Source: Brachypodium distachyon
Lineage: Eukaryota; Streptophyta; Magnoliopsida; Poales; Poaceae
Direction: 5' to 3'
Assembly: GCF_000005505.3 (NCBI RefSeq)
Contig: NC_016131.3
Coordinates: 53,739,355-53,803,354 of the forward strand
DNA length: 64,000 nt
Below are positions 1 through 50,523 of this stretch, one piece after another. A model generated the notes under the pieces. The model saw only the letters and a program-made list of their open reading frames with translations, was not told the origin of the DNA and did not search any database. Numbering within the stretch: position 1 is the first letter of the stretch; each line of letters starts with the position of its first letter. The translations under genes and the position numbers were made by a program.

Positions 1-9
1 AAGCCATAC

Positions 10-23040: not shown

Positions 23041-23739
23041 GTACGTACGTATTTTATGTGCATACATGCAGATTTCTTTACTACTTAATTCTCAGTTTAG
23101 TTAGTGCTATGTACGTCCTCCTTCTCCCCCCACGCACGACCGATTCCGATCCCCTTTCTGGGCTTTCCTCCTCCCCCACGCATGGCCGACCACGACCGAT
23201 TCCCTTCCCGGGCTTACCGATCATAACAGCTTCGCGGGCTTCCCTTCAATCCGTTACCTTTGTGGGCATATAAAAAATAAGACCTGATATCTTCCCATCC
23301 CCACATTACCTCCACCTTCCAAACCCAACTTCAGCAATGCACGACCCCAGATGATTGCCACTGATCAATGCTGGTCCCCCATCAACCCCTGATCAACGCT
23401 GGTCCCCCAAAATACCTCCACCTTCCATCCATGCTAATCAACGCACGTCCCCCAGCACCAGACCCCTGAGCGTCTCCAGCGGCAGCAGTGCTGAGCGCGA
23501 CCGCTGGTGCAGGCATCGACGGCCTGGCCACATCAAACAACAAACGGTCAGTACATTCCTGGTGCAAGCTTTAGTTCACCTGACATGCTAGGTCTCAGAA
23601 ATACATCAGTGAAAGTTCATGCCATCTTTTGCTTTGCATGAATTCATATCTATCAAAAATATCATGCAAAAATATCATACTATTGGTTTATTGGATAAAT
23701 TCAGATTCCTAATGTACTGTCTGTTACTGTATAGGCTAG

Positions 23740-24225
23740 AAGTTTGGACCCATTAGTTAAGCTTTAGGTGAATGTACTTTGTGGCGCCGTAGTGAAGTGT
23801 TTGATTATGTTGACTGGACTAATTGGCTTGTCTTGCATCAAGTCATTGTAATCTGCCCCACAATTAAGGGGGTCCTGATGAGTTATGTTTATGTGTGGTT
23901 CACTTCCAGCTTGAGAAGGTGATTGAAGCAGAAAAGGAAGCTGCACGGCAGTTGGTTCAACAAAAGAAGAGAGACAGAGCTTTGATTGCCCTAAAGAAGA
24001 AGAAATCCCAGGAAGAACTGCTGAAATAAGTTGACACATTGCAAATGAATTCATGCAAAGCAGGTTTGTAGTTTATTGGATAAATTCAGATTCCTAATGT
24101 ACTGTCTGTTACTGTATAGGCCAGAAGTTTGACTTTCTGCTCCACATCATCGAATCTAACCATCATTACGTTTCTTAGTTTTGACATATAATTTGACAGC
24201 CTACTTTTTGTTTGCATGTTTGCAT
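23740..24225 (+). pseudogene. Captured VPS20 (ESCRT-III) fragment, left copy
   Basis: Exon 23910-24063 follows TTCACTTCCAG and encodes [20 protein letters not shown] and [18 protein letters not shown], which I recognise as plant VPS20/CHMP6. The Gln after ELLK is a TAA stop. Flanking intron sequence was captured too. The segment is nearly repeated in inverted orientation at 41284-41775. Within this copy a block of about 50 bp (from TTTATTGGATAAATTCAG) occurs twice, at 23688 and 24069. It is a non-functional transduplicate. Confidence 0.8.
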
Positions 24226-24312
24226 TTTTGCATGATATTTATCCAATTCTGATCTATACAGTAACAGACAGTCCCCCTGACTTTGCATGATATTTTTCCT
24301 TCAGACAACAGG

Positions 24313-27300
24313 ATGCAGGTTGAAGTTGGATATGCTAATCATGGCCGTGCTGCTCTGCAAGATATTACTAACAGGTGTGCTCAGTCCCCCGATTCGGATC
24401 AAGGTAATTTCTCATACCATTGCTGTCAACACGCATGTTTCACCAGAATATAGGCGACTGATTTGTAGTTTACATTGTGATTTCAAACAACATTAAGCGG
24501 GCAGATATTACTGACATATATCTTCAGACCCCCAACTCCTTACAATAGGATTCTAATGCAACTTGTTATACGAAGTATATAATTCTAATCGGATATAGTT
24601 GTTTTGTTAATTGATAGCTCAACATCCGTCACAAAGTACGATCACATTTCAGGATGCAACACCGTGTGTCCCTGTTCTAAATGGTAACAAAATAGTCTAC
24701 AGTGCTGTAGTTTATCATCTAGTCCATTCTGTTTTGCGAAGCTAAACCAGGCCACACTGCCAGGTACCTCGTGCATTCAGGAATTTCAGAAACATGATGC
24801 TCCAGTCGACAATGTTGCAAACATAAAGGAAAAAAAATCAGGCTAGAAGGGAGCGAGACCAGGCACGCCGGGATAAGCAAACACCAGAGGAAAGGGAGGC
24901 CATCAATGCCCGTAGAAGGGAGCGAGACAGAGCACGACGGAATAGTTTGACACCCGACGAGCTTGTGGCGAGAAGGGAGGCACACAAATCACGCCGGAAT
25001 AAGCAAACAGCCTTGGAGAAGGAGGCCAACAATGCCCGAAGAAGCGAGCAACAGAAATCATGTCGGGATAATCAAACACCAGAGGAAAAGGAATCAGGCA
25101 GTGCCCGTAGAAGGGAACGATATAGAGCGACACTGGCAACTAGGATAGGGACACCATGCCCTGAATCCATAGCAATGCCCTGCCCGGAACTAACTGCAAA
25201 CCCCTGCCCGGAATTAGCTACAAACGTGGCTTCAGCGCCAACGTTTACCATTGGAACTGGCGGTAATGATCACATTTATGGCCAGTTCTTTTCGTAGGAT
25301 CCTTGGTTTGTTTTTCACTGACCGAGATTGTTTAATAGGTGACGTGGACGCCTTCCTCAAGCGGGTCATGGAGGCCGAGGAAGGAACGCCCTCTAGCCGT
25401 GTAACATGTGACAAGGACGCCTGCCGGGATGCCGCTTCCGATGATTTGATGGATGTTGAGTACTATATTTTTTCTGCTGAATGTACGCCCCCTCCTTGTT
25501 GTTCTCGATGTTATATGTTGTGTCAAATGGTCATATACATAATATATGTCTCTATCTCTACACCTGCAGGTTGTAATGACGAAAACATGGACATCGACGC
25601 GCCTTTGGGGGACTCTCCCGTTAGCAATGTCATCGACCCGTTTGATTTCGTCTACTCCAACGTTCCCGAAAGAACCCATAGCCTGAAGCAAGTCGACGCC
25701 TGCAGGCACTGTAAAGCCAAGAAGTGTGAGCACGAGACCGATGGTTTCTGCTGTCGGGGAGGAAAGATACAGCTCACCTACGAGGTGCCAGATCAGGACC
25801 CGGAGTTTATGAGGCTCTGGTCTAGCGCTGATGCGGACTCGCGCCATTTTCGGGACAACATTCGGTACTTCAACAGTCACTTCTCCTTCACGACCCTCGG
25901 CGTCAGTCTAGACAACAACTATACAGACATGAGATCTGGGGTATACACGTTTCCGGCTCACGGAACAATTTACCATAATGTGCATTCTTTTGGGCCTGGG
26001 TCGAAGTCAGAACATTTACAACTCTACTTCTACGACGACGACCCAAGTCTAATTCATCGCACAGAGCTACAAAGATACTGGACCAAGATGTGGTCAAGAA
26101 GGTAGCCAATATCATGAGAGGAAACCCCTACTCCGAGACTTTTAGGAGTCTAGGGGCTTGTGAGGGCAGCCTCGCGGAGTACCGTATCGACCTAAACACT
26201 GACAAGAAGCTGGATCAACGGACATACAACACACCGATTGCTTCAGAGGTGGCTGCTATCTAGGTGGAGGGCACCGACTTGGCGAGGAGGTTTCAACGCA
26301 GCATAACTCTGTATGGGGACAACGAGAGGTATGGCATACATGAGCCACGCAAGGCTGCTATGACCCGCTCTCATACCCGCTATTCTTCCCAAAGGGGGAG
26401 CTCGGGTGGCATCCCAACATACCCAAACGAGGCGTAAATTGGGAGCTTGCCCAACGTTCAAGGGCGTCTAGCAACAACGATTCAGGTTGGCCTTCACGAC
26501 ATGATCTAGCACATCCGTTTGTTTAATGCATTATACTACATTTATAACTCTCCTCCCACCTTTTTTATTACGCAGATGCAAGTCACCATCTATGTGTATC
26601 TGTTGGGGACTACTACTGTTACAGGTTACAAACGCGACCTGCGATATTCAACCCGATACTGCACGAAGCACGGCTGTTCCAGCAGTACGCAGTTGACATG
26701 TATATAAAGATCGAGGGCACGAGGTTGAAATGGTTTCGGGACAACCAGCCACTGATTCGAGCTGACCTGTACAAAGGAGTTGTTGATAGCATCACAGCCG
26801 GGGAGACTCGAGCGAGCCAGATCGGCAAAAGAATTGTGCTCTCACGGTCATTCCAAGGGGGTGACAGATGTATGAAGCAAAGGCACATGGATGCAATGGC
26901 GTTGGTGCAAAAGTACGGCAAGCCGGACATCTTCCTGACAATGACCTGCAACCCCAATTGGGACGAGATTGTCAAAGAGTTGTTGCCTGGCTAGACTCCT
27001 CAGAACCGACCGGATCTTGTCGTTCGTGTATTTAGAGCCCAGCTTGAAGTCTTAAAGGAGATGTTTCTGAAGAAACACATCCTTGGAGTTGTCAAAGCGT
27101 ATGTTTACGTTGTCGAGTTCCAAAAGAGAGGCCTCCCACATGCCCACTTCCTGCTAATCATGGATTCCAGATATAAGCTCGTGATGCCTGAGCAATATGA
27201 CCGCCTATTCTCGGCCGAGCTCCCAGACAAGAGTACCCAGAGCTTTACGCCATGGTTGTCAAGCACATGATGCATGGCCCGTGTGGTGTTCTCAAACCCA

Positions 27301-29910
27301 AGAACGTGTGCATGCAGGACGGGTTGTGTAAAAACAAATACCCAAGAACATTCAACGGTACTACCATGCAGGGGAAAGACTCCTATCCAGTGTATCGTCG
27401 GCGGGACAACGGTCGCACCGCTCGTGTACGAGGCCATACGTTGGATAACAGATGGGTCGTGCCGTACAACCCTTACCTGCTTCGTATGTTCAACTGTCAC
27501 ATTAACGTCGAGGTGTGCTCCAGCATCTGCGCGGTGAAGTATCTGTACAAGTACATCTACAAGGGAGGGGATCGCACGTCGATGAACTGGGAACAGCCTG
27601 ACAGCGAAGGCAACATCAACGAGATTAAAAGATATGTTGACGCGAGGTGGGTTACCCCGCCAGAAGCTTGTTGGAGGATTTTTGGGTTCGACCTCCATGA
27701 TAACAATCCGTCGGTGCTGCAGCTGCCGCTTCTTCTTCCGGGTATGCATATGGTGTCGTTCAATGCAAATCAGGACCTTAAGAGATGTGGCCGCGCAGGA
27801 GAAAGCATCAAAGTCGATGCTAACGGAGTATTTTGAGGCCAACAAAATACACGAGAAGGCAAGAACTATATTGTACAAGGATTTTCCAGAATGGTTCAGA
27901 TGGGTGCCAGCAGAAAAGTATTGGAAGGAAAGGGAACAATGGCCCCAGGTAGGCCGAATCGTGTCAGCCCATCCGGCGGAGGGAGATAGATACTATCTGA
28001 GGGTGTTGCTTAACCATGTTGCAGGCTCTACTTCCTTTGAAGACCTACGAACAGTTGATGGCGTCCTATGTCCAACCTTTCGGCAGGCCGCCGAAAGGAG
28101 GGGTCTTATCGAGGCCGACAACACGCTCGACGAGTGCCTGACGGAGGCGGAACAGTGGGCTATGCCATCATCGCTGCGAAGGTTGTTCGCAACAATTCTG
28201 GTATTCTGTGAGCCTGGAGATCCGCGTGGTCTCTGGGATAGGCACCTCGACGGAATGTCAGACGACTTCAGACGGTCCCTCACTTGCCCGATTGAGGTAG
28301 AGCAGAAGGTATTGCTTGAAATAAGGGGCATGCTGCAGTCCATGGGCAAAGAAATAACGTCCTTCCCTCTTCCGAGTATTGATGAAACATACGACGACAC
28401 TGGGGGCGAGGCTAGGGAGATAATCGAGGAGTCCAATATCCAGGTCGACGTGGCAGACACTTCTCTAGCGTCTTCCCTTAACGCAGAGCAGAGGTCCGCC
28501 TGCGATGAGATACTGGCAGATGTTGACAGCGGTGCTGGAGGAGTGTTTTTTGTTGATGGGCCAGGAGGCACCGGGAAGACTTTCCTGTATAGGGCCTTGC
28601 TCGCTAAGCTCTGAGGTGAGAAAAAGATAGCAGTGGCTAAAGCAACTGCGGGTATCGCTGCTTCCATCATGCCGGGAGGGAGGACCGCCCACTCGAGGTT
28701 CAAGATACCCCTGACCATTGATGACGGCGCGTCATGCAGCTTCACAAAACAGAGTGGCACGGCCAAGCTACTATCGAAGGCTTCTCTTATCATATGGGAC
28801 GAGGCCACAATGACCAAGCGACAGGCGATCGAGGCATTAGACAACAGCATGCGCGACATCATGGGCCAACGAGACCGGCCGTTCGGCGGGAAGACTGTCG
28901 TGTTCAGCGACGACTTCAGGCAGGTGCTTCCGGTTGTGAGGAAGGGCACACGGGGTCAGATAATAGACGTGAGCCTACGTAGTTCCTATCTATGGGAGAA
29001 GATGCGGCAGCTCAAGCTCATGACAAACATGAGGGCTCAAGCCGACCCGTGGTTCGCTGACTTCTTATTGCACGTCGGTAATGGCACCGAGGAGGCCGAT
29101 GAAGAAGGAAACATAAAGCTCCCTGAAGACGTCTGTGTGCCATCCACTGACAAGGAGAGTGACATAGAGAGGCTGATCGACCATGTGTTCCCGGCTTTAA
29201 ACACCAGCATGGCCGACCCGAACTATATTACTTCCAGAGCTATCCTCTCGACGAAGAACGACTGCGTCGACAAAATAAACATGCGAATGATAGAGTGTTT
29301 CAATGGAGAGGAGATGGTGTACCATAGTTTTGACAGCGCGGAGGATGATCCGCATGGTTACTACCCTCCCGAGTTTTTGAACTCACTTACCCCAAACAGG
29401 CTGCCTCCGCATGTTCTTAAATTGAAGATCAACTGCCCCATCATACTGCTGAGGAATATTGACCCGGTTAACGGATTGTGCAACGGCACACGGCTCATAG
29501 TCCGGGGATTCTAGAGAAATGCAATTGATGCCGAGATCGTGGTAGGGTAGCAACACGGGAAAAGGGTGTTCCTTCCCCGGATTCCGCTTTGCCCCTCCAA
29601 CGATGACATGTTTCCATTCCGTTTCAAGAGGAAGCAGTTCCCGGTCAGACTGAGCTTCGCAATGACCATCAACAAGGCACAAGGGCAGACCATACCAATT
29701 GTCGGCGCGTACCTACCGAACCCGGTGTTCTCCCACGGCCAGTTGTATGTGGCCTTGTCCAGAGCAACAGCAAGAGGGAACATAAAGATCCTCGCCGTGC
29801 AGGATGATGAGAATACGAACAAGTCATACAAAAGGAAGCCAAAGAAACAAAAGATGTCAGTGGTGTCCACCACTAAAAACATAGTGTACAAGGAAGTACT
29901 CACTGCATGA
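24313..29910 (+). pseudogene. Helitron RepHel (HUH replication initiator plus PIF1-like helicase), degraded
   Basis: RepHel nicks, joins and unwinds DNA in rolling-circle transposition. Plus-strand blocks appear in the canonical order. There is an Arg-rich N-terminus at 24840-25290 with repeated RRERDRARR-type units. A Cys/His segment (CRHCKAKKCEH) lies at about 25700 and the Helitron_like_N region at 25560-26990. The HUH-type motif GLPHAHFLL is at about 27131 and the paired-Tyr motif KYLYKYIYKG at about 27537. Walker A GPGGTGKT is at about 28559, Walker B IIWDEA at about 28794, and C-terminal NKAQGQTIP and YVALSRA run to 29772. Introns fit at about 25481-25568 and 26481-26575. Breaks include in-frame stops at 26261, 26992, 28612, 29512 and 29548 and frameshifts near 26335, 27230 and 27780. 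The usual GDFRQ helicase motif is SDDFRQ. It is not translatable as one protein. Confidence 0.9.
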
Positions 29911-32728
29911 TGGATAAGAAAGAAAATAACCAGCTTCCATTCAATTCAATTTAATATGTTGGTTTCTGCCTTGCTGCATCTCCTTTCCAGCATGACTTTT
30001 TTGGTTGGTTTTACTATATTGTCGCTGAAAGATTTCTTCCTTGCGAATTTGTTGGCCTCAACATGTATGCTGACACTGTTCATTTTCTCATGTTAGATGT
30101 TTTGAGTTCAGCCATCTATACTTATATTTCATACCCGTGTTGCTGTATGTTCTGTCATTTTTGTGGATTGTTTGAGCGATGCTTGATGCTGCCTGTAATG
30201 TACCCGATTCTAATTCCCATGTTCTCTCGTTTCTTATATGTTGCATGGCCTAATAGTTATTATTTTGTGTCCTTTCCGGGTCAAGTTGGAGTGGTTTGAC
30301 ATGGTTACTTTCTATGTACGGTTGATGACAATTCAGTTTATATGTGCCCGTGCGTTTTAGCCTACTGTATTTCTGTAGCAAAATTCTTTGTGTAACCATA
30401 CAGACTAAGAGGTTCAGACAGAATTGAGAAATAGGCAATAAAATATATACCAAGTACAGAAGAGGCACCTGAAAGACAATAATAGCAGCTTGATTATTAG
30501 AATGGAACCGGCAGAGGTTTGAGTGCACTTCTCTTGCTCCAGCTCTTCTCTTTGCTGCAGTTGAAAAACCGAATCATGTGATTAGTGTGTGATCTTGCCA
30601 AGCAGAATAAAAAACGAGTAAGGTCTTACCATTCTGGTAATTACACACATGACATGACTCGCCAGAACCTTCATCATCGTAACCATGAATGGATCCAACA
30701 ACTTATATACACAGTCTGCTGCCTGACAGAAGAAGAAAAACCCTTCAGTTTCTGCACGGGTATACAACATGTCCTTTCAGTTACAACGTGTCCTTTCAGA
30801 GAAAATATGATTACAATGCAAATGGTATCTCCAGGTCATGTTGATGATCTCATTGTAAGCCCTCTAAAGATAGTAAAGATGTGGATTAGCAATCGTTTTC
30901 GTTCCAGTCAGTAAGTCATACATTTTCACTTATTTGTTGCACTTCTCACCTCAATTGGTTTCTTCTCCATGTTAAGCTTATTCATGATCAAACTTGCAGT
31001 TTTATAACTGGAAAGAACATCCATGCTTCCCATCTTCTCACTACTGGTCATTCTCTTTCTGTTAGCTCCCTGCAAAAAATCATATGGTTCCTCTCAGTTC
31101 ATGAAATTACTTAGCAATCCATGTCAACAAAGCTGTTCACAAGAACTTGTCAAGTTGCAGTCTTCTTAGACTAATTAAAGTTGTAACAAAACTCCCTCAT
31201 GTTGCCTGAAATTATGAGAAGCAGAGGACATAAGCTATCTTGTCTAGAGTTCAGAGCAGTGAACAAATAGTTCACAGGAGCAGAGAGCTGCAACTGGCAC
31301 TTCTGGTAATTCCATAATAAGTCACTGATTCTTTTATGTGTTTCACCATGCTTTTAACTGGACATAGTGTGTCTGTGTGTACAGAAACCGTCATATATAA
31401 AGATCCAGAATATAAAGATAGCTATTTTTGAAACTATGAAATAAAATTGTCCTTTCTGAAGTTGTGAGTGTACAGATTTCAGTTCCGGGTTTTAGTTTGA
31501 GTTGTCCTTGCTTCTTTTTTGGCATGACATGGTAGATTACGTATTTGTTCATTGCATCTTTCAGACCTTAACAAAGATCAACCATCAGAGTTGACAATCC
31601 TCTGTATATGCCCTATTCTTTTTCATTTGTCTTAATGACCCTCTGGATTTTCCATGTCTCTTATCTGTCCTTTTAGAAGTTTGCATGTCTGTTGCAGCCA
31701 GGAAGTTTATACATGTGCTCTAATGTCCATACGCATCACAATATCATATATATGCCAGGTTTTTTTTTTACCACATCCACATCCAGGTTTGCATAACTAT
31801 CGTTTTCCTTTTCTCCAGGTTTGCATGTTTCGAAGCAATAAAAGTTAGTAGTCATCTGAGAATTGGTTTTTGCTTCAAAGTTGAAAAAAAAAGTTAGGTA
31901 GTTAATGGCTTAATGCACCAGAATTCCTGTTTTTCTTTAATGGCAAGTTAATGTCCATAGTCATATAGTATGGAAGGAACGAGATGGGGCGCCAACTAAG
32001 ATAAGGGGAGAAAGGAAGGTGGAGCCGGACGACAAGGAAGAGAAAGATTGCTATTGTGAACCAAACCGTATTCAGTCTTCTTGAAAGATTGTACTATTTT
32101 ATTATTTGATGAATAGAATGGTCGCCATATTTACCTCATAAACGGAAAGATATACAGATAAATATTTTCCTATAATGTAACTAGAGGTACTTTATATCCT
32201 TATATATGGATAGTTGTTTAGGATTTCTGTAATGACTTCTCTTACTTCGTCTTTCATGATCTATGACATGTAAAACCAATATGTACTGCCCATAGGTGTA
32301 TGAAGATAAACATGATTCTTCATATTTAGTCGACTCACTCGTTTCCAAGCCAATTATAATTTGCACTTGATCATTTACTAGCTTTTCAGAATCTTTTATA
32401 TTTCCTACAGCCGAAGATTGGTGATGAATTGTTCATATAGTGGACGCCGAGAAGGGGCGGGAGGAGGAGGCACAAAGTCATGAACCTTGTTGAAGCTACA
32501 GTATCAACCTTTTTTTTGTTTGACAAGTGCTCCAAGATTTTCAAAGGGGTTGTTTGGTTGTTGTCAAAAAGAAACAATGAGAAGTAGAATCGACTGTTTT
32601 TGCATCAACGTCGAGAAAATAATGTTGATATACATATCTTTGACATGTCGAGAAAACAATGTTGATATACATATCTTTGACATGAAATGGCAGTGTACTT
32701 GAGTCTCACATGTATCATTTTTTTTATT
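29911..32728. other. Helitron interior without recognised genes
   Basis: AT-rich sequence after RepHel. The ORFs are short and show no family. Splice-like signals are scattered, so undetected captured exons are possible. Confidence 0.35.
32610..32684. repeat. Two-copy tandem repeat, 37-bp unit
   Basis: GTCGAGAAAAtAATGTTGATA and its continuation ACATATCTTTGACAT occur twice in direct succession with one mismatch, just upstream of the Helitron-type terminus at 32729. Confidence 0.8.
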
Positions 32729-32752
32729 CCGTTGCAACGCACGGGCACCTAA
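32726..32752 (+). other. Internal Helitron-type 3' terminus
   Basis: TTCCGTTGCAACGCACGGGC then ACCTAA matches the hairpin-plus-CTRR layout at 43951-43975. It lies 2.8 kb after the RepHel stop. It could be the original end of the RepHel element that was later read through, or the end of a nested element. Confidence 0.55.
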
Positions 32753-32925
32753 CTTCGAGCTACTGAATCCCAAACTATTACTATCAGTGAACTAGCTGAC
32801 ATGCCACTTAATTTAAAGAAAACTACATATAATTTCGAGCTACTGAATCCCAAACTATGGTATAAAAAATTATAAATATACTCTGTAAGGCCTCAATCTA
32901 AAATCCCCTTAACCAAGGAAAGATT

Positions 32926-33110
32926 TAAGAGCAGCAGCACAAATCCCGTCTCAATCCCGTCTCAATTTATAACCAAGGAAAGATTTAAGATTTGCTAGAC
33001 AAACGTGGTACCCTTAATAACTGACGACGTTTTAGATGCCTTCCTAAAAACCTGCCCGTGGGAGAGAGGAAGTTTTCGGAAAGGAAGGCTACGAGAGAGG
33101 AAGTTTTGTA
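32926..33110 (+). promoter_or_regulatory. Upstream repeat module preceding the RPA1-like gene
   Basis: AAGAGCAGCAGCACAAAT, GGTACCCTTAATAACTG, CGTTTTAGATGCCTTCC, TAAAAACCTGCCCGT and GAGAGAGGAAGTT recur in the same order at 34832-35010, ahead of the Ulp1-RPA32 gene. Just upstream of the RPA1-like ATG is a TATA-like TTTAAATAC (33263). Confidence 0.6.
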
Positions 33111-33357
33111 CAGTAAATCTCTGGATAACAAGATTTTTGTTCCCTGCGTGAAATCCTTTGTTTCTTTAATCACGCCGGCCACAACACTTTCCTTTTAAGC
33201 TGACAAAAATTCTGGCGTATGAGCATAGCACCGAAATTCAAACTTTGCCGCCAAAAGCCCCTTTAAATACTGCATGTATGCTTACCCGCCAAACTCACCT
33301 CTTCCCGGTTGATTTCTTTCTACCCTCATTTCTTTCTAAACCACTCAAAAAGAAAAA

Positions 33358-34596
33358 ATGGTGATGCCATACCGTATGTATCCATCAAGGCGCGTCCATG
33401 CACCGGCACCGGAGAACTTCTTTTCGGGAGGCAACATGAGGTATACTGTTTCAGTTTTCCACATGAGTTTTTTCATAACATTTTTTTGATTTTCCAGATC
33501 ATAATCTGTTTACTCACATAACTAGGGACATGGATGTTGTGAGGACGAGAGATGGGGTAAGACCGAGAGATACACTCTTCCGTACCGTGGAAGAGGTACA
33601 TATATTCCATGATAGCTGGAGGATTCGGGCAAAGGTCGTCTACAAAGCGCGGATCAGGCGGATTCGCGTTGGCATCCCGTATCTCTGAATAATATTGGTG
33701 GACGAGGAGGTAACCAATGATTTTTTTTCTACTTTGAATGTCTTGAAGTATTGATGGTCGTAACTAGTAACATCTTTACATTTTTTTTATAATTGGTGCT
33801 GCTGTCTTGTAGGGTACCAAAATTGAGGCTGTTGCGTACGACGACCAAGCGGATCGGTTCAACACCGCTCTCCGCACCGGCTCGGCCTACGTGTTCAGCA
33901 ATGTGGGCTTCATGGACACAGAAGCGGCAGTTGAGGTCGAGTTTAACTTACCAGCTGATCTCTACTGCAGCATCGGACGAAGAACGGTGCTTGACGCGGC
34001 AGCAAATATAATAATACCTGATCTGCCACCGCGGTTCAACGAATTTCACGCTGTTTATAGGCAGTGTGACAGAACACTCGCAGGTACTCCAAAGGATCCA
34101 TGTCCTTCCTACAAATATTGATTTGTTGCGTTTTACCTAATCTTTTTTACGCAGATGTCATAGGCGTTGTCGTCTATGTGAGTCCGGTGGCGTTTAGACA
34201 GACTTACGAGAGACGCATCCCGATCAGAGATGTCCTGCTCGTGAACACAAGGTATGATATTTCTTTTTGTCTCATAATTTCTAATCATATCTTTTCACGT
34301 ACTAATTTAGTAACGCTATCAGGGCCCAACTAATGTTCGTCCGAGTTTATGACGATCATGTTCGCCGCCACATCACACGGTGGCGACCAGCTGGAAACAG
34401 GAATTGGGTCATGGCGGCCACATTGCTGAGGGATGATACGGCACAAGGAGGCCTGACTACAACATACGACAGTATTTTCGCATTTGAACCACCGGGTCCA
34501 GCGGCATGGGAGCTACACGATCTTCGTGATACCTTGGTCCGAGAAGCCTGGATTGAGCCATATATCATTCAAAGAAACAATTTGACTCCTCTATGA
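33358..34596 (+). pseudogene. RPA1-like OB-fold single-strand DNA-binding protein, Helitron-borne, one in-frame stop
   Basis: RPA1 (RPA70) OB folds bind single-stranded DNA, and RPA-like genes are known passengers of plant Helitrons. Five exons join in phase: 33358-33440, 33526-33709, 33813-34084, 34155-34251 and 34323-34596, about 302 codons. OB-fold landmarks are FHDSWRIRAKVVYKARIRRI in exon 2, IILVDEEGTKIEAVAYDDQA across exons 2-3, and DVIGVVVYVSPV in exon 4. The C-terminal TTYDSIFAFEPPGPAAWELH is in exon 5. A TGA at 33686-33688 interrupts the otherwise open frame just before IILVDEE. No intron choice that I tried removes it without breaking the frame. The exon 1 ATG is inferred from a good donor and phase. 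It lies about 1 kb upstream of the Ulp1-RPA32 gene, same strand. Confidence 0.75.
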
Positions 34597-34831
34597 ATAA
34601 ATGAATTAGGTGGGCCTCAATTTTATTATTCCAAACAATACAAGTTATTTTGGTTGTGTACTTAGTTTAGTTTTTTTTGGAAACGGTTTTTGTTTCGGTA
34701 ATCCGATTTATATATAATCGCTATTCAAGATTGAGACTTCTGTAATCCGAATTATATATAAATGTTTTTCGTTTGTTCCAAAAAAATATGGCGTGATTAT
34801 CCTTTTGCTCCCGATGTGACCAAAATACTCA

Positions 34832-35010
34832 ACTAAGAGCAGCAGCACAAATTGCATATCAGTTTTTGGCCATATCATGTCCGGTACCCTCAATAACTGC
34901 CTCCGAACTTAAACATGCTCCATCAATCACATAAAAAAATTGGTCGTTTTAGAGGCCTTCCTAAAAACCTGCCCGTCAGAAAGAGGAAGTTATGGGAGAG
35001 AAAGGCTACG
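34832..35010 (+). promoter_or_regulatory. Second copy of the upstream module, preceding the Ulp1-RPA32 gene
   Basis: AAGAGCAGCAGCACAAAT, GGTACCCTCAATAACTG, CGTTTTAGAGGCCTTCC, TAAAAACCTGCCCGT and AAAGAGGAAGTT align in order with 32926-33110. It starts about 740 bp before the Ulp1-RPA32 ATG. The two copies bracket the RPA1-like gene as direct repeats. Confidence 0.55.
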
Positions 35011-35087
35011 GGAGAGGGATAATTAACAGGAGAGTTAATGCCTTAATTAACGAGAAAGTTATGGAATAGTAGGCCGTCAACTCTCTA

Positions 35088-35309
35088 TGGCAAGATTTAT
35101 GTTCCCTGCCTGAAATCAATGGCAAGATTTATTTTCCATAATCACCTAGTTATTATTCGGGTGGCAAGATTTATGTTCCCTGCCTGAAATCAATGGCAAG
35201 ATTTATGTTTCATAATCACCTAGCTATAATTCGGATGGCAAGATTTATGTTCCCTGCCTGAAATCAATGGCAAGATTTATGTTCCATAATCACCTAGCTA
35301 TTAATCACG
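35088..35309. repeat. Three-copy tandem repeat, 74-bp period
   Basis: TGGCAAGATTTATGTTCCCT starts at 35088, 35162 and 35236. Each unit also contains an internal half repeat TGGCAAGATTTAT followed by TTCCATAATCACCTAG. It sits between the upstream module and the ATG of the Ulp1-RPA32 gene. Confidence 0.9.
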
Positions 35310-35570
35310 GAGGATTTTGTTTTCAGGTACGGAGGGAGTATGTGATTCCCTACCTGAAATCGTTTCCATAATTAAGGAATACAATAAATGCGGGACGGGT
35401 TGTGTTTTCAGGAGTAAATAGAGTATGTGATCCGAGTCATGTTGGTTTGGCAACAAAGAAAAAGGAAATACAAGAGAGAGATTTGAACCCTGTCTGCGAG
35501 AGGAGCAGCATAAAGAGGAGGGCAGCCAGCCTAGGGTTCGTGCCAAACCCCCAACACAATCCCACGAACC

Positions 35571-38500
35571 ATGACCGACACCGGCGACAACAGTTTGACC
35601 GAACCTGACAACACCCCTGACTCTAGCAACACCGCCATGACACACAACGACTGTGTGGACACGCAAGGTACATATACACTTCTTATCGATCTTGCTAGCT
35701 TTGGTTGAAAGGTTGTCGCACTGATTGCATGTTTATGTTAAATATGGTTCTGAAAATTGTATTTGTAAGTTTTTACAAACTGTATTTGTAGGTTCACTAT
35801 GGGCGTTCTTTGGACATTTATACTGATTAAGTGATAAGACTAATTTAAATGGGTTCCTGACTTGCAATGATTGTTTTTATGCACTGGACAGGGTTACTGT
35901 TTTATGACAAAAGCAAAATGATCTCAGTGATCTTGACATGGAAATGCCTGAGTATTAATGTTTGGTTTTCATGATATTTTTCCTTCTCAATCACTCAAGA
36001 TATTTATTTAGTGGCTTCTGTTAATATAGACGAATAAAGCTACTCCCTCCGGCCGGAATTACTTGTCGAAATATTACACTTTTTACGGATAGATACATGT
36101 ATTTGGGAAAATTTGAGACAAGTAATACCGATCGGAGGGAGTATCAGTTTTATCAATCAGCAAATCAATGAAACTATGCAATTAGTACTTTTTTCGGAAG
36201 CAAGATCATATCATCATAACTCATACCTTGTGCATGTCATCGCTCGAAAAATTACGAATAGCTGGCTCTGTTCTCTGTGGCTTGAGTATATCATATTCTT
36301 TCTGCTGATTCTTGGTCACCTGATCCGAATTAACCTCATAAAATGCTGGGAAAATGTCCTACAAAACTATTTCCCATAGAAATTGTGACACGATTAGCAG
36401 TAACATATAGATTACCTGGATACTCCTCCCACATAATCCTCCTGCTCCCTTCAGCTGATTTGTCTGGATGCTTTTGTGTCGGAAATCATGACATTCCACA
36501 GGATGTACCAAAAGAAGGCTAGACACATATAGCACAATAACTTGCAGGTCAGTGTGACTGAAAAAACTAAGAACATTACTCTTATAGCATGAAACACTTG
36601 ATGATTTGCCACAACAAAGAAGACAAAAATTGCCATCTTTTCTGTATTTTAATCCTTCTCCACTCCCACCTTAAGCGAAAAACTAGAAATAGTTATGCTT
36701 AAAGCTCGAGATAAATATCTCATTCCATAACAAACATATTTGAAGTGCTTCCACCTTAAGTACTTGCCAGTTGCCTGGCAATTTAATTATAGTAAATAAA
36801 GCACATAGACTATATTTTCCACGAACATCCAAAAAAAATCACAGATTAATTTTTGACAGCACTATCTCCTTGATACAGACTCTAGCTCTAGCAAAGAAAA
36901 CTACAAAGCTGCTCCCACATATAGAGTACTTCAGTTTTAATTAAAGAAACATATCTATGAATTATGATAGTAGATTTCATACAAGATCAGAATTCATTAG
37001 CCAAGGCTTTCCTGAAGCAACAGCAGGTCAATCAGATGGGCTGCGAGTATTAGATCTTATGTAATAGCTTAAGGCATATCACAGATCCATGCGTATATTC
37101 AACCAAACTTAGATTTTGATTTGACTTGGTGGTTGTAATGAATCCAATGGGGACTGCAGATGTAATGGTGGTCCAGGCACATCCATGACATTTCATAAAG
37201 CTATTCCCATACATGTAAAGCTTCTTGTTTACATTATTTTGCTGATTTGGGCAACAACATGATCAATTGAAGATGCAAGCTCCACAATTACTTCTACCGT
37301 GCCTGAAAAGAAAAACGACTCAAAGCCCCTACAGGTTACAACCAAGCCGAATGCAGGGACGACGGTTTTATCCAAAGGTATCTATTCCCTATACTTTTGT
37401 TGACAATGAACGTTCCGTATGTTATCTCTTGACAACTTCATCATGACAGAAGTGGAGTACATCGATTATATCAAATCCAAGTCCTCAGCAGCAGAAGAAA
37501 AACTGATAAAGATCCATGATTTGTCTTTGAATTACAAGATTTTGAAGTCTCTTACAGATGACCGAGCATGGATGGAAGGGGATGTAAGTGTAGTTGTATG
37601 AATAATCTATATAGCTGTTGTTTAAAATTTAGCGCCTATCTAGGGGGCTTTTCTATACTAATCTTATTCTTTTTATAGGTTGTAAGTGCGTACATATACC
37701 ACTTACGGACTCAGAACAATATGCTCACGCGAGCCGGTGGAAAGGTTTTTCTAGAAACCTCCATTGGCAATGGTTACCTGAAGTGGGATGGTGGAAACAA
37801 TGAGGACGGAACGGACATTGATGTCGACCCATCAGATAGAAAACGGCAGTGGATAGTAAATATGGTTATCGAATATCTCGACAGTGACATGGTTAGTACA
37901 CATCAATACCGGCCAGTTATTTTTTCTGTTTAAGTTTTATTATCTATTCTAGCTAGGACTGCAACTAACAGAACACTTATTTTAGGTCTTTCTACCAATT
38001 AATATGAAAGACTCGCATTGGTACATGGCAAGTATCAATGCCCCCAAACGCGTCATACAGGTCCTAGACTCCTTTGGTGTTACCATGAATCGTGTTGACC
38101 TCCATAAGACCGTAAGTATTTGCTACTTCATTAAAGTTCAGATATTCTTTCTCTAAAACTAACCCTGCAAACCTTAACAGCTGAAAGGCCTGACCAAGTA
38201 TATCGAAATAGCCCAACAGACGATACCAGACATACTGTGCAATAAATGGCCAGATATGGAAGTTTCAAAATGGGAAGTGGAGGAAATGCTACAGACGAAA
38301 ACGCAAACAGATAGGTACGCTCAACACTACTAGATTACGACCACCTTGTCAGATAATGGTCTTGATCGATATTTGAAATCCTACAGCTCATCGTGTGGTC
38401 TATTCATGTTGAACTACATGGAGCATTTTACTGGGCATGAGTTGTCCGAACCAGTTGAACAGGTATTTTTCTTGTATCACAAAGTTTCAAGGCATCAACG

Positions 38501-39626
38501 ATATTGCATTCACACATTAATTCCCTAAAAAATTTGTTTCGCAGAGCGCTATGTCAGCTTTCAGACGAAAAATCCCGTTGATATTATTCAACACGGAACT
38601 GAACACGAATCCAAGATTTTTCCTTGAACGTGACGAAGGTATGCGCTATGGCTGCTTTTTAAATCATTGTTTAATCACTAACGTGTTCTAACCTTGGTAA
38701 TTAGATCCCACCCCCGAAATAACCGAACCAGTTGGCACAACAAAAGGAACGAGCATGGGAATTGTGACAGGCACGTCCGAAATAACCGACCCAACGTTTA
38801 CAACAAAAAAAAGTATCTCTGGAGTCTTCCCGGGCATCTCAGAAGTCACAGCGAAGCAACTTGAAGACGGTTTGGAGCCAGAAAAGGTACAGCCTAAACT
38901 TGTGTGTTAATTTGTGCTTCTGAGATGTCCGGGAAATGGTAATTTAACCTTCTTGTTAAATTGTTAAATTTGTAGATTATTGTCGTTGGGTTCCTAAGAA
39001 ACCTTGGATGGGGAGAAGGATATGCCCATTTCGATATTGATGATTGCACCGGCACCACAATTGTCAGCTTCGTCAAATGGTAGGGTAGTATATAAAATAA
39101 TATGTATATTAAAATTAGACGGTCAAATCAATAATGATGTTTCGATCTATTGTATAGGGTAAAGGATGACGCGGATGAAAAACAAGCCGCTGCACTCGAG
39201 TAAGTGACTATGACCTGCATTATTTTGTGATTGTTGTAAACTACTAACATGTTTTTTTTTGTCCATTTCCTTAAACAAGGGATGATAAGTACTTTTCCGT
39301 CATTGCCAACTTCGCACCAAGGAAGACCAAGGGTCATTCTACTGCCATCTTTGTCAGGTAACCTTCCAAACTGTGATGCTGCTAAGGCATTTCATAAAAT
39401 TATATGCACATACATATGTGCATACGCGCTCCCGTGTATGTACCTATTACTGATTTTAATGAAGTAATACGTACTATCCTTGCACCTTATAAATAATGCG
39501 GGCTATCCTTGCAGGCCTATTACTGATTTTAATGAAGTACCCCTCCATTTCCTGAAGTGCATAAAAAACGAGGTCGAGAGAGGCCGAGGAAAACAAGAGG
39601 CCGTGGAGAACCATGAGAACAAGTGA
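35571..39626 (+). CDS. Ulp1-type SUMO protease (C48) fused to an RPA32-like OB fold, 13 exons, 498 residues
   Basis: Ulp1 proteases cleave SUMO; RPA32 (RPA2) is the middle subunit of the single-strand DNA-binding RPA complex. Thirteen exons join with GT-AG borders, matched phase and no internal stop: 35571-35667, 37273-37377, 37450-37583, 37679-37891, 37986-38111, 38181-38314, 38387-38462, 38545-38638, 38705-38886, 38976-39079, 39158-39199, 39280-39357, 39515-39626. They total 1497 nt. Protease residues fit His194 (SHWYMASIN), Asp211 (QVLDSFG), Gln267 and Cys273 (SSSCGLFMLNYME). The 17-residue His-Asp and 6-residue Gln-Cys spacing match yeast Ulp1. The Asp usual before Cys is Ser. Residues 388-480 read as an RPA32 OB fold: IIVVGFLRNLGWGEG, FDIDDCTGTT and RPITDFNEVPLHFLKCI. 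The N-terminal 130 residues are polar and unrecognised. The second exon is the least certain. It lies inside the Helitron, downstream of the RPA1-like gene. I recall no described Ulp1-RPA32 fusion. Confidence 0.8.
36041..36143. mobile_element. Stowaway MITE in intron 1 of the Ulp1-RPA32 gene
   Basis: TA-flanked CTCCCTCCGGCCGGAATTAC and GTAATACCGATCGGAGGGAG form inverted ends around a 60-bp interior. Confidence 0.9.
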
Positions 39627-41151
39627 ATGGCATGAACCTTCTTAAATTTAATATGTGCATTAAAGTATCACAAGTCTTATTGTATTACTCCTTTTGTAAC
39701 TTTTTAGTTATGCTATATTGGCCTCTCTGTTTTCCACGCAATTGCGTGGAACACTCTTGATTTCTATGGTCGATACACTTGCTAATTCCTATCCTATTAG
39801 CAATGTCTAACAAATTGCTAATTGCTAATTCCTATCCTATTGCACATCTTCAGATGCCTTAATTTTTACCATGCAAATAGGATAGATGGTAAAATTTAAC
39901 TATTAAATGCCTTAATTTCGGAAGCAAGTCACGAGTAAATTTTCGGTATATAGCTAACCTTTCACTTTTTTCTGTCAAAATATCCATTTGAGAATCATGA
40001 TATTCTTTTCACAACCTAGGTCCAGATCTGTATCGACCATGTGATGAACCTAATTATATCATGGAAGGTTGCTTGTAATGGATTGCTTCCAATATTTTTA
40101 GTTTAAGTTATTTTAGTCAGCCTTTTTTCAAGTTTTTTTGCATTCTTCTCACAGTAAGTGCCAAGAAAGCCTACACATCTCCAAATTATCAAAGGGCAAC
40201 CAAAATAAAAAAGGATTAATAGGCAATCCTGAACTCGTCAGGAGATTACACTTAAATTATATAACTACTCTTAATTTGGGTGATCTATTTCAGCTACTTT
40301 TTTTTGCCTATTTATTTACTTATTTATGTTGATAACAGGAAAATAGAATGGAAAGGCCATGCCCATATATACACGCAGCAATGAAGCAACGAGACGGGGG
40401 AAGGAAAGCGAAGAATCAAAGAAAAAATAGGATGACATACCCAGAGGCGAACAGTGCTGAAGCTGACGGTGAAGCTGGCCATCTCGCTCCCAGGTCCAAG
40501 TCGCTGGTGATGACATAGGCGCCGAGGGAATCGAGCAGCCTCCAGGCCCTCCTGCGAGTGTTCCCTGTTACTATTTTCCATGCAACCGGTCTTTTGTGTT
40601 TTAATACTTGCATCGATGCATATGTGAGGCTAACCCATGTCTTTTCACTGATATATTTTTCTAAACTATTTTCAGTAATCAAATTTTTAAATACATCATA
40701 TGAAATTGAAATTTAGCACAATGATATCTTCAAGCTTTGCTTTATGATTTAACATGGAGCATGCGCTACTGCTGTGAGAAATGCTTATGCTTGCACAGTT
40801 CCCTCAATTCACTCTCTAGGTGCAGCTACAAGTGAGCCTTGCTGATCATAACAACTTAGATTTACAAGTCGGTATATAGCCAACCTTTCACTTTTTACTG
40901 TCAATATATCCATTTGAGAATCATGATACTGATGTAATCATGAAATCAGTTATGTAACATTCCCAGGCAATTATCCAATCCAAAAGATGTAAAGAGTCTA
41001 ATTAGCTTCACAATCCACACAAGTAGATCAAAGCAGCTTTTATAGAGATTTGAGGTTCCACTGTAGGTATTAAGCATTAACAGTTTAACACCGACGTAAA
41101 TATAGTAACCAGTGGATTGATAAAGTTTATTAAAACTAACATCCTGAGAAG
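39627..41151. other. Helitron interior, direct repeat and an exon-like minus-strand segment
   Basis: A block of about 70 bp (GGTATATAGCTAACCTTTCA and on) at 39941-40005 recurs at 40870-40935. At 40435-40575 a GC-richer minus-strand segment, ending at a GTATGT-like donor, resembles a captured exon of unknown origin. Its end is also found at 42100-42140 beside the glucanase fragment. No function is assigned. Confidence 0.4.
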
Positions 41152-41775
41152 CCTTAGCCTCAACTGTGTCATCCATCAACTTTTGGACATCATCGATATT
41201 TATCTCACTCTATATAGACTTAAGGGATGCATTTGCAGTCTTTAGGCTTTCCAGTACAGCCTTTTGCTTACTTGCTAATTCAATGTCTGCCAGCTACAAC
41301 ATGCAAACAAAAAGTAGGCTGTCAAGTTATACGTCAAAACTAAGAAACATAATGCTGGTTAGATTCGATGATGTGGAGCAGAAAGTCAAACTTCTGGCCT
41401 ATACAGTAACAAACAGTACATTAGGAATCTGAATTTATCCAATAAACTACAAACCTGCTGTTCCACATTCATTTGCAATGTGTCAACTTGTTTCAGCAGT
41501 TCTTCCTGGGATTTCTTCTTCTTTAGGGCAATCAAAGCTCTATCTCTCTTCTTTTGTTGAACCAACTGCCGCGCAGCTTCCTTTTCTACTTCAGTCACCT
41601 TCTCAAGCTGGAAGTGAACCACACATAAACAGAACTCATCAGGACCCCCTTAATTGTGGGGCAGCTTACGGTGACTTGATGCAAGACGAGCCAATTAGTC
41701 CAGTCAAAATAATCAAACACTTCACTACGATGCCACAAAGTACATTCACCTAAAGCTTAACTCATGGGTCCAAAC
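41152..41775 (-). pseudogene. Captured VPS20 (ESCRT-III) fragment, right copy, inverted
   Basis: Exon 41607-41455 encodes [20 protein letters not shown] through [18 protein letters not shown]. After an intron, exon 41293 to about 41152 continues LADIELASKQKAVLESLK and DDVQKLMDDTVEAKASQ, colinear with plant VPS20. A TAG replaces the expected Gln codon after SLKSI. Intron and upstream flank match the left copy at 23740-24225 in reverse orientation. It has two more informative features than the left copy: no stop in the first exon, and a second exon. Confidence 0.85.
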
Positions 41776-42299
41776 TCAAAACCTCAAACAGCGAAACAAT
41801 TTTTTTAACCAACATACTATTACACAAATCAGATTGTTTGCACTAGCAAATGATTGCTATACCGATAGGCGATAGCATTAAAAGGACAAGATCATGGATG
41901 GTACATAAATATAATGGCATGCACTAGAAGCCAACTGGTTTTTGCAATACGCCACGTAAAGTAATACTCCTGATTTGATAACCCAAATGTCGCTTACTGA
42001 CATTCATCTTTCTAATTGGTGACTCAAAACCTCCACTCCTGATTACATAGCTAGACATTCTAAATCTTCGACATTAAATATACTCCCTAAGGCTGAAATA
42101 GGATGACATACCAGAGGCGAACAATGTTGAAGCTGACGGTATGTATTGAATTTAAAACCTCATTTTTAACACTACTAAAAACCAACCAATCATGCTGAAA
42201 AACTAAAGACTGCAGCAGCAATGCGACGGCAGTAAAACTTTCAGATGAAACAACGCAAGCTAGACAGGGAAGGTTCATGAGAAGAAGAATGAAGAGAAA

Positions 42300-43151
42300 T
42301 CAGACACTGACCTTGCCATCGGTGAGCAGCCTGAGATCATAAACAGGAGTGAAATCCGGATTGAACAGCCCAAAATGCCGCTCATCAACAGGTCCAGGCT
42401 TCTGGTTCTCATCAAACAAGGAAAACAGATACGTCTCAAAAATCCTGTTGGGCATCAACGGCGTCCCCTTGCCACTGCTGCAAACCCTCAACATCCCTTC
42501 ATTAAAATCCTGCACCTCCTTCACCCCAACCCCAACCTGGTCCGCCTCGGCCTGCGTCGGCCACCCAGCCTCCCCGACAGCGACTTCCACATCCCCGTAC
42601 CCGAGCTTGACCATGGCCGTGTAGATCGCGTCCATCTGTGCCTCGAACATGCTGGTGTAGTTGAGCTTGGTGGCCGGGTCGTAGATCCTTGCGTTGGGGC
42701 GGAACAACGCGTAGTTGAGAGTCTGCGGGTTGTAGCTGAAGTAAGGGTACGGGTTGACCATGAAGGGGGGTTTAGTGTCGCGGTGGAACTGCAGCATGGA
42801 TGGGAAGAGCTTGGTGTTGTAGCCAGCGCGGAAGGTGGCGTTGGAGGGGATCCCGTCGGAGGGGGCCAGGATGCCAAGGTAGTACGGGGTGGAGACACGG
42901 ATGGAGGGGAAGCCTTCGGATTTGAGGGCTTGGGCGAGGCGGCGCATGGCGGGGAGGAGGGAGAGGATGAGGTTTGGGTCCGGGGAGGGGAGGCTCTCAT
43001 TGCCGGCGAGGAGGAGGGTGATGTTGGTGGCCGGGGGGCGAGGTTGGCCCGGATCCAGGAGACGGCGGTTGTGAGGCCGGTGGATTTGTTGGCGAGGGAA
43101 GGGAGGAGGGAGTTGGTGAGGGAGCTGAGATTTGGGCTGTGGCAGGAGCAT
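42300..43151 (-). pseudogene. Captured GH17 glucan endo-1,3-beta-glucosidase fragment
   Basis: GH17 enzymes hydrolyse beta-1,3-glucan (callose). The minus-strand frame shows PPATNITLLLAGNESLPSPD, STPYYLGILAPSDGIPSNAT, PFMVNPYPYFSYNPQTLNYA, then the acid-containing VAVGEAGWPTQ and RIFETYLFSLFDENQKPGP, which match the family's central and C-terminal part. The N-terminal third is missing. Near 43035 a one-base loss in a G-run shifts the frame: the preceding AVSWIRANLAPRP is in another frame. The fragment ends at LLTDGK followed by GTCAGT, an original donor, then an intronic TGA. It is a truncated Helitron passenger. Confidence 0.85.
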
Positions 43152-43544
43152 GCCGGCGGGGAGGATCGGTGAGATCCAGAACGAGACCGCGAGGGAGGTG
43201 AGGGAGCTGAGAGGGTGAGGAAGCTGAGAGTGTGATTGAGTGGGTGAGAAGGGATAGGTTTATTTCTTTTTTGTCTTTTTTTCCCTACATCTTTAGTTGT
43301 TGCTAATCTCGTTCTTTGATTAATTGTTGCTAATTTCGTTCTTTTTGTCAAAATAATTCTATGCTAACTCCCTTGCTAAATACATACCATAATTAAAACA
43401 ACTTTGATAAGGTTGGATGATTTATTCTTTACGCAGAAAAAACATGATAGCCCATAGTTTGCTAGATCTTTCGTATATACGGCTTCCTATTTAAGATACT
43501 TGTTACAACTATGTTTAGACATTTTTCTCTATTGTCAATTGTGA

Positions 43545-43690
43545 AATGATATATTTTCCTCCGTTTGATATTAAGTGACTCAAATTTGTCTAAAAATAGA
43601 CGTATCTATGTACTCAAATATTCTAAATACATGTAGTATTTTTTCGATTGACGTGTCTGTATCTCCTACGGCTAATTTCTAAACAAAATG
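43545..43690. mobile_element. Degenerate Stowaway-like sequence
   Basis: TTCCTCCGTTTGATATTAAG, with AGTGACTCAAATTTGTC, resembles a Stowaway left arm. The right arm is badly decayed. Confidence 0.45.
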
Positions 43691-43950
43691 CTTAAATATT
43701 AGTCAAAAGTATCGGAGCCATTGGATTACTATTTGTAGACCATCCCTACTCTCTCCTCTTCATCTTTAGTTCAAAATCCCTATCTTAGTACATATGAACC
43801 AGATCCAACGGTTAAGCATGTAATCAACTTATCTCTAAATAAAAAACATGCGGCCAAAACTGTTTGACCATATCTCATGCGATTGTTTTTTAAGTAAGAA
43901 CCTTAAATCTCTCTCATTCGATTAACATGTCCATGAGTTTGTTAGTCCGT

Positions 43951-43975
43951 AGCAACGCACGGGCACTCCACTAGT
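43951..43975 (+). other. Helitron 3' terminus
   Basis: CCGTAGCAACGCACGGGCA, in which CCGT and ACGG can pair, is followed by CTCCACTAG and then T. The sequence after it is homologous to the intron of microprotein gene A. Confidence 0.7.
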
Positions 43976-50158: not shown

Positions 50159-50523
50159 TGTTGGAATTTTGGGTTAGGCCCAAGGCCCAATCTGAAATTA
50201 ATTCCTGGAAAACCTCAAAAGCCCATTCATGGAGTGGGACGAGGAAGTGGGAATAGTCCCACCTTGCTAGTTTAGGGGGATTTAGACCAATATATAAGGT
50301 ATGTTGGTTCTCACCTCTTGAGCAAGTGAGCAAGGGAAATCCCCACGCGCGCTCCTCCTCGCCTCGCCTCGCCTCGGAATCCGTTGTGGACGCTTAACAA
50401 ATCTCGATAATTGCGGAGTCAGTTTTGGTTTTCTAAACCGAACCGAAGTCCGCCTGCGTGCCTACATAATAAGACGACCGCGGTCTCCGGACGGACGACG
50501 CCACAACCCTAGCCATCACGCCC
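50159..50523 (+). repeat. 5' LTR of the copia element (internally deleted)
   Basis: Aligns with 53014-53444. It contains a TATA-like ATATATAAGG near 50290 and ends abruptly at the pol junction. Confidence 0.75.

Follow-up and report, generated by a model that had tools for sequence, protein, structure and literature searches.

Results

A non-autonomous Helitron surrounds a gene with a protease and an RPA32-like half

The window, that is, the whole 64,000-nucleotide stretch analysed here (C1:53739355-53803354 of the assembly), contains a Helitron on its forward strand (23075..43974) that begins with TCTTTACTAC, ends with CCGTAGCAACGCACGGGCACTCCACTAG and is flanked by a T on either side. Its ends were defined by comparison with a copy on contig C4 (35.38-35.41 Mb): the two share interrupted common sequence from TCTTTACT at position 23075 to near the 3' end, and their flanks differ. 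On the 3' side, the homology extends up to CCACT, which is followed by CTAG and then T in the window and by CTCG in the C4 copy. The termini consist of a 5' TC at 23075 and a 3' CTAG (of the form CTRR) closing at 43974, with a hairpin (CCGT...ACGG, in 43945..43974, forward strand) about 12 nt ahead of the CTAG end that is weak as a DNA fold (-4.3 kcal/mol, z -1.49). The insertion site in the window is T|T; Helitrons insert at A|T, with T|T sometimes allowed, according to passages in PMC4683698.

Between these ends lies a RepHel gene (HUH Rep and PIF1 helicase; forward strand, approximate span 25218..29514). Its Rep domain (PF14214, E 4.1e-34) falls within 26548-26991 and its helicase domain (PF05970, E 5.6e-53; PF21530, 2e-18) within 28615-29511, which bears out an earlier reading of this DNA that had placed the gene under study in a Helitron. 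Because the reading frame is broken by a TAG (26992-26994) and a TGA (28612-28614), the Helitron is not autonomous today. The element also contains a captured piece of a GH17 glucanase gene (PF00332) and, on the forward strand at 33358..34597, a putative gene with a TGA near 33686 and a motif that we take to be RPA70-like (plant Helitron RPA). This tentative assignment comes from reading the sequence; the last 213 residues had no match in Pfam or the PDB, and the piece is common to three copies of the element (window, C4:35.38 and C3:53.03 Mb).

The gene under study occupies 35571..39626, also on the forward strand. Thirteen exons, whose boundaries were set by reading the letters by hand and which were then joined, yield a modelled coding sequence of 1497 nt, with 498 codons and a single terminal TGA (39624-39626), and all 12 introns start with GT and finish with AG. 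The phase-coherent frame of 499 codons, one stop included, that had been assembled in the preliminary description was thus recovered. The first exon (35571..35667), with the ATG start, and the second (37273..37377) come from the hand-joined model, whose weakest parts are exon 1 and the 1.6-kb first intron; for exon 1, the C4:35.38 Mb copy provides a match of 74%, and the C3:53.03 Mb copy one of 91% over 512 nt at the DNA level. Exons 3 to 8 encode the protease and are placed by the model together with an intron match to a related Ulp1 gene at locus L052. They comprise its N-terminal portion (exon 3, 37450..37583), exon 4 (37679..37891), the exons bearing H194 and D211 (exon 5, 37986..38111), Q267 (exon 6, 38181..38314) and C273 (exon 7, 38387..38462), and the end of the protease (exon 8, 38545..38638). 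Exon 9 (38705..38886) encodes a linker and the start of the RPA32-like part, as judged from the model and from comparison with both the host RPA32 gene (locus L051) and L052. The OB fold continues through exons 10 (38976..39079), 11 (39158..39199) and 12 (39280..39357), all placed by the model and the host comparison, and exon 13 (39515..39626), for which PDB matches are available in addition, encodes the region of the C-terminal helix (PITDFNEVPLHFLKCI) and ends in the TGA stop.

The two halves resemble Ulp1/SENP proteases and RPA32

In a Pfam scan of the 498 residues, Peptidase_C48 (PF02902) was the sole family at E<=1, matching residues 179-305 with an E-value of 7.3e-16. The catalytic residues H194, D211, Q267 and C273 are all found where they had initially been reported, at a spacing that we take to be that of C48 (Ulp1/SENP) peptidases. 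Searched against PDB sequences, the protease part matched 11 distinct sequences at E<=1, headed by SENP7 (PDB 3eay, 1.1e-4), Ulp1 (1.2e-3) and SENP2 (1.9e-3). Profile and catalytic residues thus assign the protein to the C48 (Ulp1/SENP) family, and cleavage of SUMO is its predicted activity.

The C-terminal 135 residues had no match in Pfam. When they were compared with PDB sequences using phmmer, however, RPA32 chains accounted for eight of the nine matches at E<=1, including 1l1o_B (E 6.2e-4); the ninth was calreticulin (E 0.81). Seven of the eight chains are named as RPA32, and the other, 4gnx_B (E 1.1e-5), which we take to be an RPA32 chain as well, is merely called a 'putative uncharacterized protein'. 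The preliminary description had tied its assignment of this part to RPA32-like sequence beyond residue 388, and such similarity is indeed present at about residues 383-479; a BLASTP comparison with the host RPA32 protein adds 37% identity over 108 residues. The position of human F135, presumably an aromatic residue that contacts ssDNA, is occupied by arginine in the fusion protein (alignment to the PDB chains, inspected by eye). Moreover, the RPA_C winged helix (PF08784), which the host RPA32 product bears (E 3.5e-19), is absent from the fusion protein, C48 being the only family returned by the Pfam scan of its 498 residues. Because this domain is missing, the fusion protein, to judge from its domain content, carries an RPA32 module and is not an RPA32 subunit.

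Both halves recur together in five copies

To survey related sequences, the 498 residues were searched against the same genome assembly (271 Mb, 11 contigs), which returned 85 exon matches. By visual inspection, we assigned these to 28 loci, including two (C5:38.43 and C4:34.61 Mb) whose match falls outside the protease. The fusion is present at five loci, namely the window, C4:35.38, C3:24.65, C3:53.03 and C3:20.08 Mb, and in every one of them exons 2-13 follow the same order across both halves. A RepHel match lies 8.5-10.3 kb upstream of the fusion in four of the five copies (the window and three others). The gene had initially been described as intact, which holds for the copy in the window; it does not hold for the element, given the in-frame stops in RepHel, or for the other four copies of the fusion, all of which are broken by frame-breaking insertions or deletions. 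There are also five splice-site changes altogether, two each at C3:53.03 and C3:20.08, one at C3:24.65 and none at C4:35.38. Beyond the five copies, RPA32-like matches are limited to one at C5:38.43, which covers just the last exon, and three of low strength, among them the host gene itself, and no RPA32 match adjoins the related Ulp1 genes at C1:29.86, C4:54.07, C6:23.12 and C1:15.88 Mb.

These copies bear on whether the locus might comprise two separate genes, one for an Ulp1 protease and an RPA32-like one that starts at a methionine in exon 9. There is indeed a Met codon after the protease in this exon ('TSMGIV'), and host RPA32 is a standalone gene. However, the gap between exons 8 and 9 measures 66 bp and could hardly accommodate the end of one gene plus the promoter of another, the donor GT of exon 8 and the acceptor AG of exon 9 are found in all five copies, and the frame in the window runs continuously through both exons. 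We therefore regard two separate genes as very improbable, whereas the Ulp1 and RPA32 OB-fold parts very probably belong to a single gene, as far as can be read from the sequence.

The intron maps point to two parental genes

The RPA32 half was compared with one host RPA32 locus, L051. The exon junctions 9/10, 10/11, 11/12 and 12/13 of the fusion gene coincide with host junctions in both residue and phase (4/4), and exons 10-12 measure 104, 42 and 78 nt in the fusion as against 98, 42 and 78 nt in the host gene. Since all four intron places and phases have been kept, this half was copied as genomic DNA. Its intron map identifies it as an ancient duplicate of exons of the host RPA32 gene that ends before the winged helix; by eye, the source exons are the third to sixth of L051, with their introns included.

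In the protease half, all five introns from exon 3 to exon 8 match those of the Ulp1 gene at L052 (C1:15.46 Mb), which is located 7.7 kb upstream of a RepHel match with an open frame of 1661 residues. Together, the four host-like and the five Ulp1-like introns uphold the initial argument that the coherence of phase across the gene exceeds what chance would produce. The L052 gene continues past the protease into another domain, which is not RPA32 and had no match in Pfam, and intron 8/9 of the fusion has no clear counterpart in it, so that the junction between the parental genes seems to fall within exon 9.

Ulp1 genes also accompany other Helitrons in this genome

Half of the loci matched by the fusion protein (14 of 28) have a RepHel helicase match on the same strand within 20 kb. 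Uniform random placement gave an average of 0.13 such loci and a maximum of 2 in 2000 trials, a contrast that is somewhat flattered because uniform placement ignores the clustering of transposons and because the RepHel list is imperfect: it consists of 68 positions hand-picked from 96 matches, in which pieces of one copy may count twice and weak matches may be host PIF1 genes. Of these 14 loci, four are the fusion copies with RepHel upstream; at nine others, the Ulp1 exon lies 7.6-14.6 kb upstream of RepHel, and at one, on C6, it lies downstream. A general link between C48 and RepHel was considered and rejected, with four of 41 C48 matches (obtained from 150 scored among 342 candidates) near RepHel, three of them copies of the fusion. 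Four Ulp1 elements without RPA32 (L047-L050) all have Helitron-like ends, with a hairpin, a CTAG|T terminus and differing flanks, and Ulp1 therefore travels in another Helitron family, too. Based on these four elements and the 14 loci near RepHel, SUMO proteases may be a more general accessory of Helitrons in this genome.

The joined frame is constrained between distant copies

Selection was gauged mainly against the most distant copy, at C3:20.08 Mb. Its comparison with the window copy gave a dN/dS of 0.43 (0.32-0.57) for exons 2-13, with 0.29 (0.19-0.42) for the protease, 0.65 (0.30-1.59) for exon 9 and 0.56 (0.31-1.00) for the RPA32 half. When the comparison was limited to codons at which the other four copies agree, the values were 0.45 for the gene, 0.33 for the protease, 0.64 for exon 9 and 0.47 (0.22-1.01) for the RPA32 half, and frame-shifted controls yielded 0.71 and 1.41 (gene), 0.68 and 1.43 (protease) and 0.67 and 1.82 (RPA32 half). 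Among the four close copies, the bounds are wide, several exceeding 1; the comparison of the window with its nearest copy, for instance, gave 1.07 (0.08-2.20) for the RPA32 half and 0.68 (0.34-1.65) for the gene, with bounds too wide to be informative. Read in the frame of the window, the distant copy is free of stops across 256 exon substitutions, for which neutrality predicts a mean of 6.7 stops (P(0)=0.002); if half of these substitutions were neutral, 3.7 stops would be expected (P=0.02). Its exons are slightly less conserved than its introns (81.7% versus 84.4% identity), which counts against strong constraint. Overall, this analysis shows that the joined frame has been under constraint between long-separated copies. 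The dS between copies of the fusion reaches 0.39 with the distant one, corresponding to about 15 million years if grasses accumulate 1.3e-8 substitutions per site per year.

For the RPA32 half by itself, the evidence of constraint is weak because the upper bound lies at 1.00 and one shifted frame (0.67) comes close to the true one (0.56). This result leaves room for ordinary gene capture, in which the RPA32 exons would have been gained by chance and read in frame, the joined protein would be functionless, and the protease alone or neither half would have mattered. Helitrons capture gene pieces, as the glucanase fragment in the same element illustrates, and four of the five fusion copies are broken. 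In addition, the intactness of the window gene was rejected as proof of function, a single copy with 30-45 substitutions being free of stops in 24-38% of neutral cases. However, phase has been held over all four introns of the RPA32 half, the distant copy is stop-free over its 256 substitutions, the fusion occurs in copies that are 0.39 apart in dS, and the RPA32 half stays at 0.49-0.62 in four comparisons with the distant copy, with upper bounds of 0.84-1.08. On balance, we consider chance capture rather unlikely, although it is the most serious of the rival explanations.

Discussion

As a whole explanation, we propose that the window contains a chimeric Helitron gene whose RPA32 module docks a SUMO protease on RPA-coated ssDNA, a reading to which we give an even chance of being right. 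A protease gene of a type carried by or adjoining other Helitrons in this genome was joined, apparently in exon 9, to exons of host RPA32. In RPA32, the OB fold and the C-terminal helix assemble with RPA70 and RPA14 into the trimeric core of RPA, and the corresponding parts of the fusion protein would dock the protease on the RPA-coated ssDNA that arises in Helitron transposition. Once docked, the protease would strip SUMO from RPA70 and repair factors, and the ssDNA intermediate would then be copied and re-inserted rather than treated as damage.

A rolling-circle transposon has to get its ssDNA intermediate past host repair, and the gene described here suggests that the element does so by removing SUMO from the proteins that collect on this DNA. 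The fusion protein could thus represent a covalently tethered counterpart of SENP6 acting on RPA70, whose SUMOylation is countered by SENP6 according to passages in PMC10514054 and PMC4281951. De-SUMOylation at RPA-coated ssDNA fits both the parts of the protein and the constraint on its frame, and as a mechanism we rate it at slightly less than even. More tentative still is a broader scenario in which a dedicated SUMO protease would be standing Helitron equipment in this genome and one lineage would have fused host RPA32 to it, plugging a de-SUMOylase into the RPA trimer and ending SUMO signalling at the ssDNA intermediate.

Alternatively, the protease may be an anti-silencing factor that targets SUMO-dependent silencing or methylation machinery, by analogy with the Ulp1-bearing VANC protein (KIU) of Vandal MULEs, with the RPA32 part merely bringing it to replicating DNA. 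As far as the relevant passages go, KIU Vandals hypomethylate related elements, with the role of Ulp1 there being unknown (PMC13317346), and several types of transposon (MULE, CACTA and Ginger1) contain Ulp1 domains (PMC2528002, PMC2836005). We consider this alternative improbable, more so than chance capture. The preferred reading, docking on RPA-coated ssDNA, has the merit of posing a testable question, given a fusion whose frame has persisted in copies that diverged long ago: is transposition aided when SUMO is removed at RPA-coated DNA? The locus is also a clear example of how a Helitron can assemble a new gene out of one transposon gene and one from the host, and its intron map records both parents.

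Among known proteins, host RPA32 shares with the fusion its OB-fold sequence (37% over 108 residues) and the places and phases of its introns, but it has an N-terminal tail of its own and the RPA_C winged helix, neither of which is found in the fusion. SENP6 and SENP7 are SUMO proteases like the fusion protein, and SENP7 is its best PDB match; both are host genes, and neither is known to combine the protease with an OB fold in a single chain. Animal Helitrons, too, can carry a protease of ubiquitin-like modifiers, in this case an OTU cysteine protease, OTU being a family distinct from C48. The passage on these elements in PMC2836005 describes no RPA32 fusion, unlike the situation in the window. 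Transposon-borne C48/Ulp1 proteases suspected of aiding their elements are likewise known from KIU and other Ulp1 MULEs, CACTA-ULP and Ginger1 (passages in PMC13317346, PMC2528002 and PMC2836005). However, these elements are not rolling-circle transposons, and RPA32 is unmentioned in the passages on them, whereas the window element is a Helitron with RPA32. The open-licence literature naming both Ulp1 and Helitrons yielded, in the parts available, no description of Ulp1 inside a Helitron, although other print may differ, and the main text of a 2026 study of a wheat Helitron that is active (PMC13286980) contains no word starting with RPA, protease or ULP. Also similar are the plant Helitron RPA (PHRPA) Helitrons, such as the Mothra sister family of rice, which according to passages in PMC4683698 have TC...CTAG ends, a 3' hairpin and RepHel together with an RPA-related single-strand-binding gene; the window element resembles them in its ends and RepHel, and in a hairpin and an RPA-related gene that are weak and putative, respectively. 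As described there, PHRPA is a separate gene outside the core RPA, and the main text contains no word starting with 'protease'; the window, by contrast, holds a host-derived piece of RPA32 fused to a SUMO protease. What the present analysis adds are the intron maps, which tie the RPA32 half to host RPA32 and the protease half to a RepHel-linked Ulp1 gene.

Results and Discussion

Judged from their sequences, four further Ulp1-bearing elements of the same genome (L047-L050; C1:29.86, C4:54.07, C6:23.12 and C1:15.88 Mb) look like a second Helitron family carrying this SUMO protease, because all four end in a hairpin followed by CTAG|T and lie in differing flanks. They share 93-97% identity with one another across 2.9-3.6 kb, and a search for an RPA32 match at these four loci found none. 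Another Ulp1 gene, at L052 (positions 1-4000; C1:15463401-15467400), lies 7.7 kb upstream of a RepHel match with an open frame of 1661 aa; it encodes a further domain after the protease, for which a Pfam search returned no match.

Close to its 3' end, the Helitron in the window contains a captured fragment of a gene for a GH17 glucan endo-glucosidase (42300-43256, minus strand; PF00332, 5.9e-47 in Pfam). A second stretch resembling a Helitron 3' end and terminating in CTAA lies within the element (32729-32755), as though read-through past this end had brought genes lying further downstream into the element. The ORF listing of the window also includes a 548-aa open frame (50473-52119), presumably a copia-type polyprotein.

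Sequence comparison further revealed two inverted arms (23686-24220 and 41298-41776), 95-97% identical, spaced ~17 kb apart and both internal to the Helitron; on the left side of the related, fusion-bearing C4 copy (35.38-35.41 Mb), the inverted stretch is longer (~2.1 kb). A reading frame in the arm region looks like an ESCRT VPS20 exon. Such arms are unexpected in Helitrons, an element type without inverted ends.
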